A DNA stretch of 64,000 bases from Verrucomicrobiaceae bacterium (GTDB lineage Bacteria > Verrucomicrobiota > Verrucomicrobiia > Chthoniobacterales > JAATET01). The notes beneath the pieces were generated by a model, which was not told the origin of the DNA, did no database searches, and saw only the letters and a list, made by a program, of their open reading frames with translations. The stretch lies in contig JAIYAZ010000047.1 of the NCBI GenBank assembly GCA_027488755.1, forward strand, positions 1-64,000. Reading direction: 5' to 3'. A program made the translations under genes and the position numbers. Positions 42,121-47,830 of the stretch are shown in pieces; the first letter of the stretch is position 1; each line of letters starts with the position of its first letter.

Positions 42121-42600
42121 GTGGATGCCGACGACCCGATTATCGATCTTGCCAGCGACGCCTACTTCATGGGCGAGGCCCTGCGCCAGGCCCACCGTGC
42201 CTACGAGGCGGAGGAGGTGCCCATCGGGGCCGTGGTCGTGCGCGAGGGGCGCGTGATCGCCCGCGCGTGGAATCAGGTCGAGACGCTCAAGGACGCCACC
42301 GCCCACGCCGAGATGCTTGCCATCACGCAGGCCGAAAACGCCGTGGGCGACTGGCGGCTCACCGATTGCGACCTCTACGTGACGAAGGAGCCCTGCCCGA
42401 TGTGCGCCGGGGCACTCGTGCACGCCCGCCTGCGCCGGGTGATCTTCGGCTGCGGTGACCCGAAGGGCGGCGCGGCCGGCGGCTGGATCAACCTGCTCCA
42501 AACCACCGAACTCAACCACCGCTGCGAGGTCGCCGGCGGCGTGCGCGCCGAGGAATCCGTCGGGCTCCTCCGCGCCTTCTTCGCCGAGCGGCGGCGTTAG
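42121..42600 (+). CDS. tadA: tRNA-specific adenosine deaminase
   Basis: 159 residues from GTG at 42121; ATG at codon 17 is an alternative. Converts A34 to inosine in tRNA-Arg(ACG). Zinc deaminase motif His62-Ala-Glu64 and Cys92-x2-Cys95 (PCPMCAGA), with the C-terminal helix typical of TadA. Shares TTAG (42597-42600) with the convergent GH43 gene. Confidence 0.94.
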   Translation: MDADDPIIDLASDAYFMGEALRQAHRAYEAEEVPIGAVVVREGRVIARAWNQVETLKDATAHAEMLAITQAENAVGDWRLTDCDLYVTKEPCPMCAGALVHARLRRVIFGCGDPKGGAAGGWINLLQTTELNHRCEVAGGVRAEESVGLLRAFFAERRR

Positions 42601-43688
42601 TCGAACACCGACAGATCCCACGCGTCGTGCCAGGTGATCGTGAAGCGGTCCGGGCCGAAGACGATGGGCAGCCACACGTAGCCGCTGCGGCAGTGATCCT
42701 CCGGTCGCCAGGTGTCGAACATCGCGATGAACGCGCCGGGGCGGCCCTGCACCGGCAGGATGAACGTGCTCTGCGCGCCGAACGTGAGGTCGGGGCCGAG
42801 CCGGTGGCGCGGCGTCGGGCCCACGCAGGGATTCCCGAGTTCGCGCCAGGGGCCGAAGATCGAGTCGGCCACCGCCGAGCGGGCGGCGTTCGGATTCCAG
42901 CCCGTGCAATGCGACGAGAGCATCCAGTAGCGGCCGGCGTGTTTGCAGAGCGCTGGGGCCTCGTGCCAGAGATACTCGAAGATGCGCGTCCACCGCCCCG
43001 TGTGGGTGAGGTGATCCGGCGCAAGCTGCGAGAGGTGCAGGGCGGCATTCTCCTCCGAGGAGAAGACGTGGTAGGCCGTGCCGTCGTCGTCCACGAAGAG
43101 CGTCATGTCCTTCGCCATCTGGCCGCCGTAAAAATCGCGCGCCAGAAAGTTCATCCGCGCCCGGTCCGGGTGCGGGCTGCCCCAGAACGCCGTGCCCAGC
43201 AGCTTCTGCGCCTCCTCGAGTCCATCGCGCTGTTCGGCGGTGACGTTTAGCGGCCAGGTGCCGGCGTCGGGCCGCAGCGAACGCAGGAAGCGGTAGGGGC
43301 CGGCGGGATGCTCCGCCACGGCGAGTCCGCTGCGGGCGGCCTTGCGTCCGTGGCCCTTTAACTCGAGGTGGAACCACATGACGAACTGCCCGGTGCTCGC
43401 GCTGCGAATCACCTTGGGCCGCTCCAGAATGCAGCCGCGGGTGATGTCGCTCGCGGGATCGTCCACCATCTCCAGCGCGATGCCGCGGTCGGTCCAGTTG
43501 TAGAGATCGGTCGAGGAATAAACGTGCACGCCGACCTCGCAGGTGTCGCCATCCTCCTTGTGCTCGCCGAACCAGTAATAGACGCCCTCGTGAAACAGGA
43601 CGCCCCCGCCGTGGGCGTTGATGGGCACGCCGTTATTGTCGAGCCAGGGTTCGTCGGGAAGGAACTGCGTGCGGGGGGTGGGGGACAT
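42597..43688 (-). CDS. Cytoplasmic GH43-like glycosidase (exo-beta-1,3-galactanase-like)
   Basis: 363 residues. Five-bladed beta-propeller glycosidase. The opening NNGVPINAHGGGVLFHEGVYYWFGEHK segment and DMTLFVDDDGTAYHVFSSEENA resemble the GH43 subfamily containing exo-beta-1,3-galactanases (GH43_24-like, recalled). WHEAPALCKHAGRYWML supplies the conserved Glu. There is no signal peptide, so it would act on imported oligosaccharides. It lies 10 bases downstream of the queA stop on the same strand and may be co-transcribed, with no obvious functional link. Confidence 0.8.
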   Translation of the reverse strand: MSPTPRTQFLPDEPWLDNNGVPINAHGGGVLFHEGVYYWFGEHKEDGDTCEVGVHVYSSTDLYNWTDRGIALEMVDDPASDITRGCILERPKVIRSASTGQFVMWFHLELKGHGRKAARSGLAVAEHPAGPYRFLRSLRPDAGTWPLNVTAEQRDGLEEAQKLLGTAFWGSPHPDRARMNFLARDFYGGQMAKDMTLFVDDDGTAYHVFSSEENAALHLSQLAPDHLTHTGRWTRIFEYLWHEAPALCKHAGRYWMLSSHCTGWNPNAARSAVADSIFGPWRELGNPCVGPTPRHRLGPDLTFGAQSTFILPVQGRPGAFIAMFDTWRPEDHCRSGYVWLPIVFGPDRFTITWHDAWDLSVFD

Positions 43689-43698
43689 GCCCCCGTAT

Positions 43699-44670
43699 CT
43701 ACACGATGAGCATGCAGTCGCCGTAGCTGAAAAAGCGGTAGCGTTCGCGCACGGCCTCCTCGTAGGCGGCGAGCACGGCTTCGCGGCCGGCGAGGGCGCT
43801 GACGAGCATGATGAGCGTGGACTTCGGGAGGTGGAAGTTCGTGAGGAGCGCGCCGACGCGTTGGAACTCGTAGGGCGGGCGCAGGAAGATCGCCGTGCGG
43901 TCGGAGCAGGGGGTGAACGGGCCGGGCGGCTGGCTTTCGAGCACGCGGGTGGTGGTCGTGCCGATGGCGACGATGCGGGCGGCGGCGTTCAGCCCGGCGG
44001 CGCAGTCGGCGTCGATGGTGTAGCGCTCCTCGTGCATGACGTGCTCGGCGATGTTCTCGGTCTTGACCGGCAGGAACGTCCCGGCGCCGACGTGCAGCGT
44101 GAGAAAGCTGTGGGGGAGGCGCGTGAGAATTTCCGGGGTGAAGTGGAGGCCCGCCGTGGGCGCGGCCACCGAGCCTTCGGGGCCGGCGTAGACGGTCTGG
44201 TAGCGTTCGTCGTCCTGCCGGTCGGCGGGGCGGTGCATGTAGGGGGGGATGGGCAGTTCGCCGAAATGCGCGAAATCGACCGGTCCCTCCGCCGCGAGCA
44301 GTCGTTCGCCCGTGGGCAGAATTTCCGTGACGGTGAGGCGCGTGCCGGCGGCGGCGAGCGTGGCACCCACGCGGAAGCGGCGGCCGGGTTTGACCATGCA
44401 CTTCCAGACGCGGGGGGAGACTTCCTCGAGGAAGAGGAGTTCGGCCTTCGGCTGTTCGCACACGACGCGGGCGCGGACGACGCGGGAGTTATTCAGCACG
44501 ACGCGGTCGCCCGGCCGCAGGTAGGCGGGGAAGTCGGTGAACATCCGGTGCTCGACGCGGCCCGTGCGGCGGTCAAGCACGAGCATGCGCGAGGCGTCGC
44601 GCCGCGCCAGCGGGCGGTCGGCGATGAGCTCGGGTGGGAGCGCGAAGTCGTAATCGGAGAGCTGGTCCAC
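43699..44670 (-). CDS. queA: S-adenosylmethionine:tRNA ribosyltransferase-isomerase
   Basis: 323 residues from GTG at 44668-44670. Converts preQ1-modified tRNA to epoxyqueuosine. Typical features are LSDYDFALPPELIADRPL at the start, the NNSRVVRARV segment, AAPTAGLHFTPEIL and the C-terminal HLPKSTLIMLVSALAGRE. It completes a set with folE2, queE and queD at 22.8-26.1 kb. Immediately downstream of the glycosidase-glycosyltransferase fusion (19-base gap), same strand. Confidence 0.96.
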   Translation of the reverse strand: MDQLSDYDFALPPELIADRPLARRDASRMLVLDRRTGRVEHRMFTDFPAYLRPGDRVVLNNSRVVRARVVCEQPKAELLFLEEVSPRVWKCMVKPGRRFRVGATLAAAGTRLTVTEILPTGERLLAAEGPVDFAHFGELPIPPYMHRPADRQDDERYQTVYAGPEGSVAAPTAGLHFTPEILTRLPHSFLTLHVGAGTFLPVKTENIAEHVMHEERYTIDADCAAGLNAAARIVAIGTTTTRVLESQPPGPFTPCSDRTAIFLRPPYEFQRVGALLTNFHLPKSTLIMLVSALAGREAVLAAYEEAVRERYRFFSYGDCMLIV

Positions 44671-44689: not shown

Positions 44690-47242
44690 TTACTTCTTCT
44701 GCACGCGGGTGAGACCGACCTTCTGCGCGGCGGCCCCGACGAGTTCGGCGACGCGGCGTTTGAGGCGGAAGGCGCGATAGCCGAGCACGCCCGCGAAGAT
44801 CGCGTAGACGATCTGCGGCGCGTAGTCCCAGCCGTCCATCGAGAACTGGCGGAAGGCGAGGATACCGAGCAGCACGACGTGGAAGAGCAGCGTGGTGGCC
44901 ACCATGTGGGTGGTGAGGCGCACGCGGGTGAGGGCCTTCGGGCCGCCGTGGTATTCCGTGACGCTGAGCATTTTGATGCCCCACCAGAAGCTGCCGTAGA
45001 CCTGGACGTCCCAGTCCTTCCAGCCGGTGTCCATCGAATAGCTCCAGCCCTCGCGCTCGAGGGCGTCGATCACGGCGGGGAGCAGGGCTTCGCGGCCGGT
45101 GCCGGTTTCCTCGTTCCAGAATTCGAGGTTGGTGATGCTGCCGCCCTTCACGGGGCGGTAGCCCTCCTCGGGCGCGGCGATGACGCCGGGCGGGGTGCGC
45201 TTGAACTTCAGCCACACGTAGTAGCGCGTCCAGCCGCGGACGAGCGGCTGGGAGAGCGCGAGGAAGATCACCAGCAGGCGGGCGCGGATGGTGTCGAACC
45301 GCGGCTCAAGCTTCGCGTGGATCATGTAACTGAGCGCCACGAGCAGCGTCGCGCCGAACATGAGGTAGGGCACGATGCGCAGGAAGGGCAGGGGGATCGA
45401 GGCGACGAAGATGGCGCCGGCGAGGGTGACCCATTCGATGCTGCTCACGTAGGCGGCGATCTCGGACTGCGGCGTCGGGTAGATGCACTGGAAGAGGCCT
45501 TCGCCGAAGACGCCGTGGTAGATCACCGGGCGGTTGATGAGCCAGGTGAAGCGCGGCGCGCCGTAAATCTGCCCGCGCCATTTGGCGGTGCCGGTCGGCC
45601 CGAAGAAAACGAGGTGCTTGAAGCGGAGGAGCGACTCGGCCTCGCCGTAGCCTTCCTGCTGCTTGCGGAAGGCCTGGAGGGTGAAGCGGCGGTAGTGCCA
45701 GACGATGGCCGCGGGGCTGAAGGCGATGACCTGCCCTTCCTGCTGGAGGCGCCAGCAGAAGTCCACGTCGTCGCCGGCCTTGCGATACTCGGGGTCGAAG
45801 CCGCCGATTTTTTCGAAGGCCCATTTGTGGAAGGCCATGTTGCAGCCGGGGATGTGCTCGGCGACGACGTCGGTGAGGAGCACGTGGCTGGGGCCGCCGG
45901 GCGCGGCGCTCACGCAGGCCTGAATCCAGTCCTCGGCGGGCGGCGAGATGTTCGGCCCGCCAACGCCGCAATAGTCGCCGCTCGTGAGGGTGTGCACGAG
46001 GTAGTAGAGCCAGTCGGGGTCGGCCATGCAGTCCGAGTCCGTGTAGGCGAGAATCTCGCCGGTGGCCGCGTAGCCGCCGACGTTGCGGGCGACGGAGAGG
46101 CCCTTGTTGACCTGCTGGATGTTGACGATCCACGGGTGGCGGGCGGCGATTTCCTGCGTGTTGTCCTTCGAGCCGTCGTCTACGAGGATGACCTCGTAGT
46201 TCGGGTAATCGACCTCCTTGAGCGACTCGAGGCAGCGTTCAAGCGTCTTCGCGCCGTTGTAGGAACAGACGATGACGGAGACCTTCGGGTAGGTGGCGAG
46301 GCCGATTTTACGCGTCATCGGCTCGTCGCCGGCGAAGTAGCGCTTCACCGCGGCGAGGGCCTTTTTCGGCGTGCGGTCGCGGCGGACGAGACCGAAGTTC
46401 CAGTCCATGATCTCGTTGCCGCCGCGGAACCATTCGTCGGTCCACGCGTAGAGCACGGTGCCCGCGAGGCCGCCGCGCACGACGCTCTCGATGTGCCAGG
46501 TGAGCATTTCGGCCTGCTCCTCCTCGGGGTGGCGGATGGTGTCCATGCCGAACTCGCCCATGACGAGCGGGCGGTCTTCGGCGAGGTTTTGGAGGCGGGC
46601 GAGGTAGCGGTCGAAATCCTCCTGGCGGTGGAGGTAGACGTTGAAGGTGTAGAAATCGACGTTCTGGGGGAGCAGGTATTCCGTGGGCGGGAAGCTCGCG
46701 TAGCTGTAGAGGGCCGTGGGGTCGGCCTCGCGGGCGACGTTGATGAGCTCTTCGACGAACTCGGTCACGCGCCGCGCGCCGAGCCAGCGCACCATGCTGG
46801 TGGGGATTTCGTTGCCGACGAGGTAGCCGAAGATGGCGGGGTGACCGGCGTTTTTCGCCACGCCTTCGCGCACGGCGCGCACGACTTCGCGGCGGATTTT
46901 GCGGTCGTTGAGGAACTCGATGTGCTCGGCCCAGGGAATCGTCACCAGCACCCGCACGCCGTGCGCGGCGCAGGCGTCGAGGAACCAGCGCGGCGGCACG
47001 TAGTAGACGCGCAGGAGATTGATGCCGGTGTCGGCGATGAGGGCGAGGTCCTTCGCGAGCTTGGCGGGATCACCGAAGTGCTCGCCCTCCGCGTCGGGCG
47101 CAAAGGGACCGTAGGTCGCGCCCTTGATGAAAAACTTCCGGTCGCCTTCGAAGAAAAACTTGGCCCGCACGCGGACCTTCTGCAGGGATTGCACGGCGTT
47201 AAGGCGTATCCCGTCCGCAGCAGGATTCAATGCGAATCGCAC
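44690..47242 (-). CDS. Glycosidase-glycosyltransferase (GH clan A-like + GT2) membrane fusion
   Basis: 850 residues if started at GTG 47242; a GTG at 47194 (codon 17) is equally possible and sits right at the domain start. Residues ~30-305 form a GH2/GH5-like TIM barrel with candidate acid/base Glu145 (LVGNEIP) and nucleophile Glu230 (VMGEFGMD). Residues ~319-545 are a GT2 domain: VSVIVCSYNG, Asp355/Asp356 (VDDGS), Asp402/Asp404 (TDSD) and GDDVDFCWR. Membrane segments follow at about 604-640, 655-672 and 780-822. There is no signal peptide or membrane span before the GT2, so the glycosidase and transferase should both be cytosolic. Probably makes or trims a surface polysaccharide; a chain-editing or transglycosylating role is speculation. 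It follows an ECF sigma gene by 15 bases. Confidence 0.8.
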   Translation of the reverse strand: MRFALNPAADGIRLNAVQSLQKVRVRAKFFFEGDRKFFIKGATYGPFAPDAEGEHFGDPAKLAKDLALIADTGINLLRVYYVPPRWFLDACAAHGVRVLVTIPWAEHIEFLNDRKIRREVVRAVREGVAKNAGHPAIFGYLVGNEIPTSMVRWLGARRVTEFVEELINVAREADPTALYSYASFPPTEYLLPQNVDFYTFNVYLHRQEDFDRYLARLQNLAEDRPLVMGEFGMDTIRHPEEEQAEMLTWHIESVVRGGLAGTVLYAWTDEWFRGGNEIMDWNFGLVRRDRTPKKALAAVKRYFAGDEPMTRKIGLATYPKVSVIVCSYNGAKTLERCLESLKEVDYPNYEVILVDDGSKDNTQEIAARHPWIVNIQQVNKGLSVARNVGGYAATGEILAYTDSDCMADPDWLYYLVHTLTSGDYCGVGGPNISPPAEDWIQACVSAAPGGPSHVLLTDVVAEHIPGCNMAFHKWAFEKIGGFDPEYRKAGDDVDFCWRLQQEGQVIAFSPAAIVWHYRRFTLQAFRKQQEGYGEAESLLRFKHLVFFGPTGTAKWRGQIYGAPRFTWLINRPVIYHGVFGEGLFQCIYPTPQSEIAAYVSSIEWVTLAGAIFVASIPLPFLRIVPYLMFGATLLVALSYMIHAKLEPRFDTIRARLLVIFLALSQPLVRGWTRYYVWLKFKRTPPGVIAAPEEGYRPVKGGSITNLEFWNEETGTGREALLPAVIDALEREGWSYSMDTGWKDWDVQVYGSFWWGIKMLSVTEYHGGPKALTRVRLTTHMVATTLLFHVVLLGILAFRQFSMDGWDYAPQIVYAIFAGVLGYRAFRLKRRVAELVGAAAQKVGLTRVQKK

Positions 47243-47257
47243 CCCGCGGCGGAGGCG

Positions 47258-47830
47258 TCAAACCGGCGATCCGATGATCTTGCGCAGTCGCATCATGCCG
47301 CGGCGGATGCGGGCCTTGATGGTGCCGAGCGGCTCGCCGAGGCGCTCGGCGATCTCGTTCTGGGTGAGGCCGCCGAAGTAGGCCATCTCGATGACCTCGC
47401 GCTGCTCGTCGTTGAGCTTGAGCACGGCCGCGCGGACCATGGCGCCCTTTTCCTGGGAATCGACGTCGTCGAAGGGACGGCGGTCGTGGATGAAATCGTC
47501 CTGGTCGGCCTCGGCGGTGGCCTCTTCGCGCAGGCGGATGCGGCGCTGCACGGAGCGGATGCGGTCGATGGCCTTGTTTCGCGTCATCGTCACCGCCCAG
47601 GTGAGCGGCTTGCCGCGGGTGACGTCATACATCGGCGCCTTTTCCCAGATCATGAAAAAGACCTCCTGGGCGACCTCCTCGGCGTCGGCCACGTCGTTCA
47701 AAACGCGCAGCGCCGTCGAATAAATGATGCCCGAGTATTTTTCGTAGAACTCCTCGAACGCGGCGCGATCCGCCATGGCAATCCGTCGGATCAACTCGAT
47801 CTCTGCCAGGTTGTCGGGGTGGAGTTCCAT
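47258..47830 (-). CDS. ECF-type RNA polymerase sigma factor
   Basis: 190 residues. Region 2 (about 20-95) includes ADAEEVAQEVFFMIWEKAP and a helix with TMTRNKAIDRIRS. Region 4 (about 130-185) has LNDEQREVIEMAYFGGLTQNEIAERLGEPLGTIKARIRRGMMRLR. It resembles the SigK-like ECF group, which is normally paired with an RskA-type anti-sigma gene, but none follows. Instead the glycosidase-glycosyltransferase fusion is downstream by 15 bases, suggesting the sigma factor controls envelope polysaccharide synthesis. Confidence 0.93.
   Translation of the reverse strand: MELHPDNLAEIELIRRIAMADRAAFEEFYEKYSGIIYSTALRVLNDVADAEEVAQEVFFMIWEKAPMYDVTRGKPLTWAVTMTRNKAIDRIRSVQRRIRLREEATAEADQDDFIHDRRPFDDVDSQEKGAMVRAAVLKLNDEQREVIEMAYFGGLTQNEIAERLGEPLGTIKARIRRGMMRLRKIIGSPV

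Follow-up and report, generated by a model that had tools for sequence, protein, structure and literature searches.

A conserved glycosidase–glycosyltransferase fusion of the Chthoniobacterales that is co-inherited with an ABC exporter points to an apparently undescribed exported glycan

The window, i.e., the whole stretch of DNA analyzed in this study, comprises 64,000 nucleotides of contig JAIYAZ010000047.1 from a Verrucomicrobiaceae bacterium (assembly GCA_027488755.1). On its minus strand, it harbors a gene (44690..47242; 850 aa, GTG start) encoding the fusion of a glycoside hydrolase (GH) barrel with a GT2 glycosyltransferase, as deduced from the open reading frame (ORF), Pfam and homologues. 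A SigK-like ECF sigma factor gene (47258..47830, minus strand; 190 aa, with sigma-70 regions 2 and 4 identified by Pfam) is located upstream of it at a spacing of 15 nt, and a minus-strand gene identified from its sequence as queA-like (43699..44670) follows 19 nt downstream. In the original prediction, this region had been read as an ECF sigma gene followed by a glycosidase–GT2 fusion, and both the coordinates and the domains were confirmed by the ORF list and Pfam. The queA-like gene also adjoins the fusion in family f15, as seen from synteny; it represents an old neighbor, and a functional link to the fusion is not expected. Downstream of queA, a GH43-like gene was found (42597-43688; PF04616, 9.6e-16), which is not conserved beside the fusion. 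Scans for promoters and terminators revealed nothing above chance.

Profile match, fold alignment and structure model all assign residues 26-306 of the fusion protein (46325..47167, minus strand, as for all features of the protein) to a GH clan A-like barrel, and Pfam matched residues 16-303 with Glyco_hydro_72 (4.8e-8) and Glyco_hydro_2_C (1.1e-7). Within the barrel, Glu145 in a GNE motif (46808..46810) is the predicted acid/base and Glu230 in a GEFG motif (46553..46555) the predicted nucleophile. The GT2 domain, featuring a GT-A fold, extends over residues 314-545 (45608..46303; Pfam Glycos_transf_2, 8.5e-30 over residues 322-530) and contains a DxD motif, Asp402-Ser-Asp404 (46031..46039), as well as a GDDVD motif at residues 490-494 (45761..45775) representing the putative GT2 catalytic base. 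Hydropathy, the models and comparison delimit a C-terminal membrane part at residues 594-841 (44720..45463). A conserved small alpha/beta insert is located between its helices (residues about 700-780; window positions 44903-45145), for which the Pfam search returned no match. Hydropathy analysis detected no hydrophobic segment before residue ~590, in agreement with the predicted direct joining of the GH and GT2 domains with no membrane span between them.

The proposed catalytic residues are strictly conserved. Glu145 and Glu230, named as catalytic in the original prediction, were invariant in 69 of 69 order-level homologues and in 32 of 32 sequences including members of 35-50% identity. The same was observed for the aspartates of the DxD motif (Asp402 and Asp404) and the GDDVD motif (Asp492 and Asp494), both in the 69 order-level sequences and in all 32 sequences down to 35% identity. 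Since the catalytic residues remain invariant down to 35% identity, chance and decay are excluded. The fusion was found full-length and with the same domain order in 30 out of 38 relatives, at 62-92% identity, and matches at the GT2 level at most were obtained for the other eight (G007, G010, G013, G014, G016, G019, G023, and G031). The fusion was carried by 36 out of 388 genomes sampled from the phylum. The named matches were Chthoniobacterales and their relatives, Chthoniobacter flavus Ellin428 (locus L094) being one of them; the fusion is old and occurs almost throughout the order. A search of plasmids for the fusion returned GT2-level matches only, none of them covering 80%. One fusion match (G028:C6:223647-226136, L101) was reported with one in-frame TAG, which may reflect decay, an error, or the gene's end.

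Domain search and structure prediction recovered the expected clan A-like barrel, its family affiliation being favored as GH157 by sequence and tied with GH2 by fold. A profile built from 22 diverse barrel members matched LaGH157 (PDB 9fz9) best (E 3.7e-26, 95 bits), the next distinct protein being a GH2 enzyme (50 bits). Fold comparison by itself does not separate GH157 from GH2 beta-glucuronidases, both of which score Z about 30 (VIA-align versus 9g4n: Z 30.3, rmsd 2.9 over 298 residues, level with GH2 enzymes). By sequence, LaGH157 (PDB 9fz9, 9g4n, and 9g5g) is the nearest relative of the barrel with a solved structure, although the identity is about 20% and a GT2 is absent there. LaGH157 has been solved in the presence of laminari-oligosaccharides, and in the alignment Glu230 of the fusion corresponds to the glutamate replaced in 9g4n (E224A). 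No paper naming these three PDB entries was found in the open literature. Judged by the match to the LaGH157 chain rather than by a GH157 family model, the barrel appears to be nearest to GH157, a beta-1,3-glucanase family. Furthermore, 14 of the 22 barrel members matched Glyco_hydro_72 (beta-1,3-glucanosyltransferases) in Pfam. None of the 22 members matched GH17 with an E value of 0.01 or lower, and GH17 was absent from the PDB matches shown. Because LaGH157 is the best match and Glyco_hydro_72 is also matched, a beta-1,3-glucan-like substrate is hinted at and represents the leading guess. In the structure model, Glu145 follows strand 137-141 and Glu230 lies at strand 226-231, so that the predicted barrel presents its two invariant glutamates after strands 4 and 7 in a clan A-like manner. 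A second AlphaFold model, based on a deeper alignment, raised the mean pLDDT from 66 to 75, with values mostly between 75 and 95 for the barrel. The GT2 region was poor in the first model and residues 518-594 are unreliable in both, so that we make no claim on how the two active sites are positioned with respect to each other.

Evidence for the side of the membrane on which the barrel operates was provided by family f15. Members of 684-736 aa (L126-L132, L158, and L160-L164) keep the GH and GT2 domains and every catalytic residue and lack the C-terminal membrane part, and their N-termini exhibit nothing suggestive of secretion. Because these soluble forms possess neither a membrane segment nor a hint of secretion, a cytosolic site of action is most likely for the barrel; the short forms thus support the predicted cytosolic placement indirectly, but independently of topology prediction. 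Genome G347 of the same family encodes two fusion genes, one soluble and one long with an exporter gene beside it (L159 and L162), and the long copy was possibly acquired from another lineage.

Membership of the second domain in GT2 is clear (PF00535, 104 bits versus a cut-off of 23; Asp402, Asp404, and Asp492 invariant). The initial wording 'polymerase-like', however, had to be abandoned, because, in place of the QxxRW motif that marks processive synthases, 31 of 32 sequences carry QQxGYGxAE and the remaining one carries QQxGYAxAE. The arrangement of the BcsA and HAS type, with channel-forming helices on both sides of the GT2, is likewise absent. As QxxRW is lacking and the helices are few and all C-terminal, self-translocation of the product in the manner of BcsA appears unlikely. 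Among the NCBIfam models, that of MftF, the mycofactocin glycosyltransferase (TIGR03965), scored best on the GT2 domain (6.5e-43), reaching 147 bits versus the 280 bits of the curated cut-off. MftF differs in having no barrel, and no mycofactocin genes were seen near the fusion.

In families f16, f19, and f24, the gene that immediately follows the fusion encodes an MsbA/NdvA-like ABC half-exporter with a length of about 600 aa. Altogether, exporter and fusion are adjacent in four families, namely in G112 (f19), in five f16 genomes, in G326 (f24), and at the second copy in G347 (f15). The orthologue in the source genome (G000:C90:32956-34725) is unlinked to the fusion. In the phylum sample, a profile of seven exporter sequences separated orthologues with at least 711 bits from paralogues with at most 539 bits. 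The exporter remains below every curated cut-off (448 bits of the 602 required for MsbA and 301 of 585 for ChvA). Among the 38 relatives, fusion and exporter were both present in 30, with the exporter split over two contigs in G030, and both missing from eight; the uncorrected chance of this pattern is 2e-8, based on counts that ignore shared ancestry. The absences of both genes span four families, and since two of these (f2 and f8) also contain genomes with both, the two genes were probably lost together more than once. Across the phylum sample, 18 of 18 exporter genomes carried the fusion, and the exporter occurred in none of the 352 fusion-less genomes. Exporter genomes carry the fusion in its long form. 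A further 18 genomes, belonging to families f18 and f15, carry the fusion with neither the exporter nor the GT-B-like partner described below, so export is not required everywhere.

The GT-B-like partner is a protein of ~390 aa with a weak Glyco_trans_1_2 match, often encoded beside the exporter gene. Genes for a hexapeptide acyltransferase, for this ~390-aa protein, or for both come after the exporter gene in many relatives. The GT-B-like protein was present in 29 of the 30 fusion-bearing relatives versus none of the eight fusion-less ones, and its profile was matched in 17 out of 388 genomes of the phylum sample, all of them among the 18 exporter genomes. Two GT-B-like genes (~385 aa) lie back to back in the source genome (G000:C167:62225-64543, within L208), the phylogenetic pattern of this pair being equal to that of the exporter. 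Fusion, exporter, and GT-B-like genes are unlinked in the source genome, and G326 has one cluster in which a methyltransferase, a GT-B/GT2 fusion, and a GT2 accompany the fusion and the exporter. The exporter (C90) and the GT-B-like transferases (C167) are the true partners of the fusion, and all three co-occur almost perfectly throughout the phylum. The gene set is thus revealed by co-occurrence, although its members are unlinked in most genomes.

The best overall explanation, to which we assign a probability of roughly 55%, is that the fusion represents a membrane-held bifunctional enzyme of the cytosolic face whose product is exported by the dedicated ABC protein. The enzyme would be anchored in the inner membrane through the helices at its C-terminus, and its GT2 domain would use a nucleotide sugar as donor to extend an oligosaccharide or glycolipid. 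The GH157-like barrel, called retaining because of its two glutamates, would act in the cytosol as a transglycosidase or hydrolase on the GT2's own product. By cyclizing, transferring, or trimming the chain, it would set the chain length. GT-B-like glycosyltransferases, plus the hexapeptide acyltransferase in some genomes, would decorate the chain, and the MsbA/NdvA-like exporter would move the product across the inner membrane. We infer the chemistry of each step, the beta-1,3-glucan-like substrate, and the export of the product. The suggestion that the barrel edits or releases the growing chain fits its relationship to GH157 and GH72. Glycosidases partnering synthases are commonly looked for outside the cytosol; a cytosolic barrel fused to a synthase and co-inherited with an exporter would, if true, imply a different control of the length or shape of exported glycans.

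The nearest division of labor is that of rhizobial NdvB with NdvA, in which synthesis and remodeling take place on the cytosolic side within one large protein and a separate ABC exporter is used. The catalytic families differ, those of the NdvB type being GT84 and GH94, and the exporter described here is far below the ChvA cut-off. Regarding architecture, the pseudomonad 'Orphan'/NdvB GH17-GT2 proteins are the nearest described example, with a glycosidase barrel that precedes the GT2 on the same polypeptide. They possess a periplasmic GH17 barrel after a signal peptide, three helices before the GT2, and a Q(Q/R)xRW motif; the barrel was proposed to cyclize or remodel and the GT2 to elongate (PMC10237404). 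In contrast, the fusion of this study has a GH157-like, predicted cytosolic barrel with no GH17 match, neither a signal nor a helix before the GT2, no QxxRW, and a co-occurring ABC exporter. By the tests made, it belongs to neither type. No description of a GH–GT2 fusion of this kind was found in the open literature, to which the search was confined. The undescribed polysaccharide system postulated originally is therefore plausible, but its partners are not the sigma factor and lie elsewhere in the genome. The conserved fusion, the export pump, and the further sugar-adding enzymes together suggest an exported sugar polymer or glycolipid that is apparently undescribed. A more specific proposal, held tentatively and at somewhat less than even odds, is a new exporter-dependent pathway, in which a cytosolic GH157-like transglycosidase, fused to a non-processive GT2, would remodel the chain before export, GT-B-like transferases and the dedicated ABC exporter would complete the route, and the scattered genes would be inherited as one unit. 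In any case, a named and testable gene set is now available for the Chthoniobacterales, an abundant and poorly studied lineage of soil and freshwater.

Two narrower readings are about equally doubtful, each having perhaps one chance in a few. As a special case of the exported product, the GT2 might synthesize a cyclic or short linear beta-1,3-glucan, which the barrel would cyclize inside the cell, hence the need for an NdvA-like exporter. The GH157 and GH72 relationship, the exporter linkage, and the parallel domain logic of the pseudomonad GH17-GT2 proteins (PMC10237404) favor such a synthase, but the GT2's nearest NCBIfam model is MftF instead of a glucan synthase, GH17 is not matched, and the additional GT-B-like enzymes suggest a heteroglycan. 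Alternatively, GT2 and GT-B-like enzymes might build a lipid-linked glycan, the barrel trimming or transferring on the intermediate and the ABC protein acting as an MsbA/PglK-type flippase. This would be consistent with the exporter scoring best with MsbA models and with the membrane helices next to the GT2 in the long form, the form present in exporter genomes; however, the soluble short forms share the same active sites, and no lipid-linked sugar genes were seen beside the parts.

A strictly intracellular role, with glycosylation and editing of a small molecule or storage oligosaccharide kept in the cell, as by MftF for mycofactocin, and with the exporter as a lineage-specific addition, is rather improbable. 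MftF is indeed the best model for the GT2 domain, and the core enzyme can serve without exporter and GT-B-like partner in f18 and in f15 except for one copy, so that an intracellular role is possible there. The tight co-inheritance and the repeated exporter adjacency nevertheless argue against this reading in the source lineage.

Much less still speaks for an ECF sigma-controlled operon in which sigma gene and fusion together constitute the system, as was originally envisaged. The two genes are closely spaced in the window, the sigma gene also adjoins the fusion in G001 and L057, and both genes are probably co-transcribed in the source genome, where the sigma gene may affect the fusion in this way. 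Yet a sigma gene was found near the fusion in only 7 of the 56 homologous loci with at least 3.3 kb of upstream DNA, and within the same genus it was not directly upstream in two out of four genomes (G002 and G003). The upstream neighbor is frequently hemL or another housekeeping gene. By these neighbor counts, the sigma–fusion operon was ruled out as the unit. Within the order, housekeeping genes (hemL, queA, and others) dominate the fusion neighborhoods, which are uninformative on function. Least probable of all is a catalytically dead, carbohydrate-binding barrel. In general, GH-like folds within fusions need not be catalytic, but here both glutamates, together with the aromatic and acidic residues around them, show no variation down to 35% identity.

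The missing anti-sigma gene beside the sigma gene holds true for the window but is a local feature, as relatives (L047) encode an RskA_C anti-sigma factor at this place. In a related group, the genes are arranged as hemL, sigma, RskA_C anti-sigma, small membrane protein, fusion, and queA. The RskA_C gene lies between sigma gene and fusion (L047:6762-7478, with the same place in L050, L052, L053, and L058); it is absent in the source lineage, where the sigma gene remains. A conserved gene for a small membrane protein of 97 aa is located just upstream of the fusion on the opposite strand (L047:7624-7917, minus strand; also in L050, L053, and L058).
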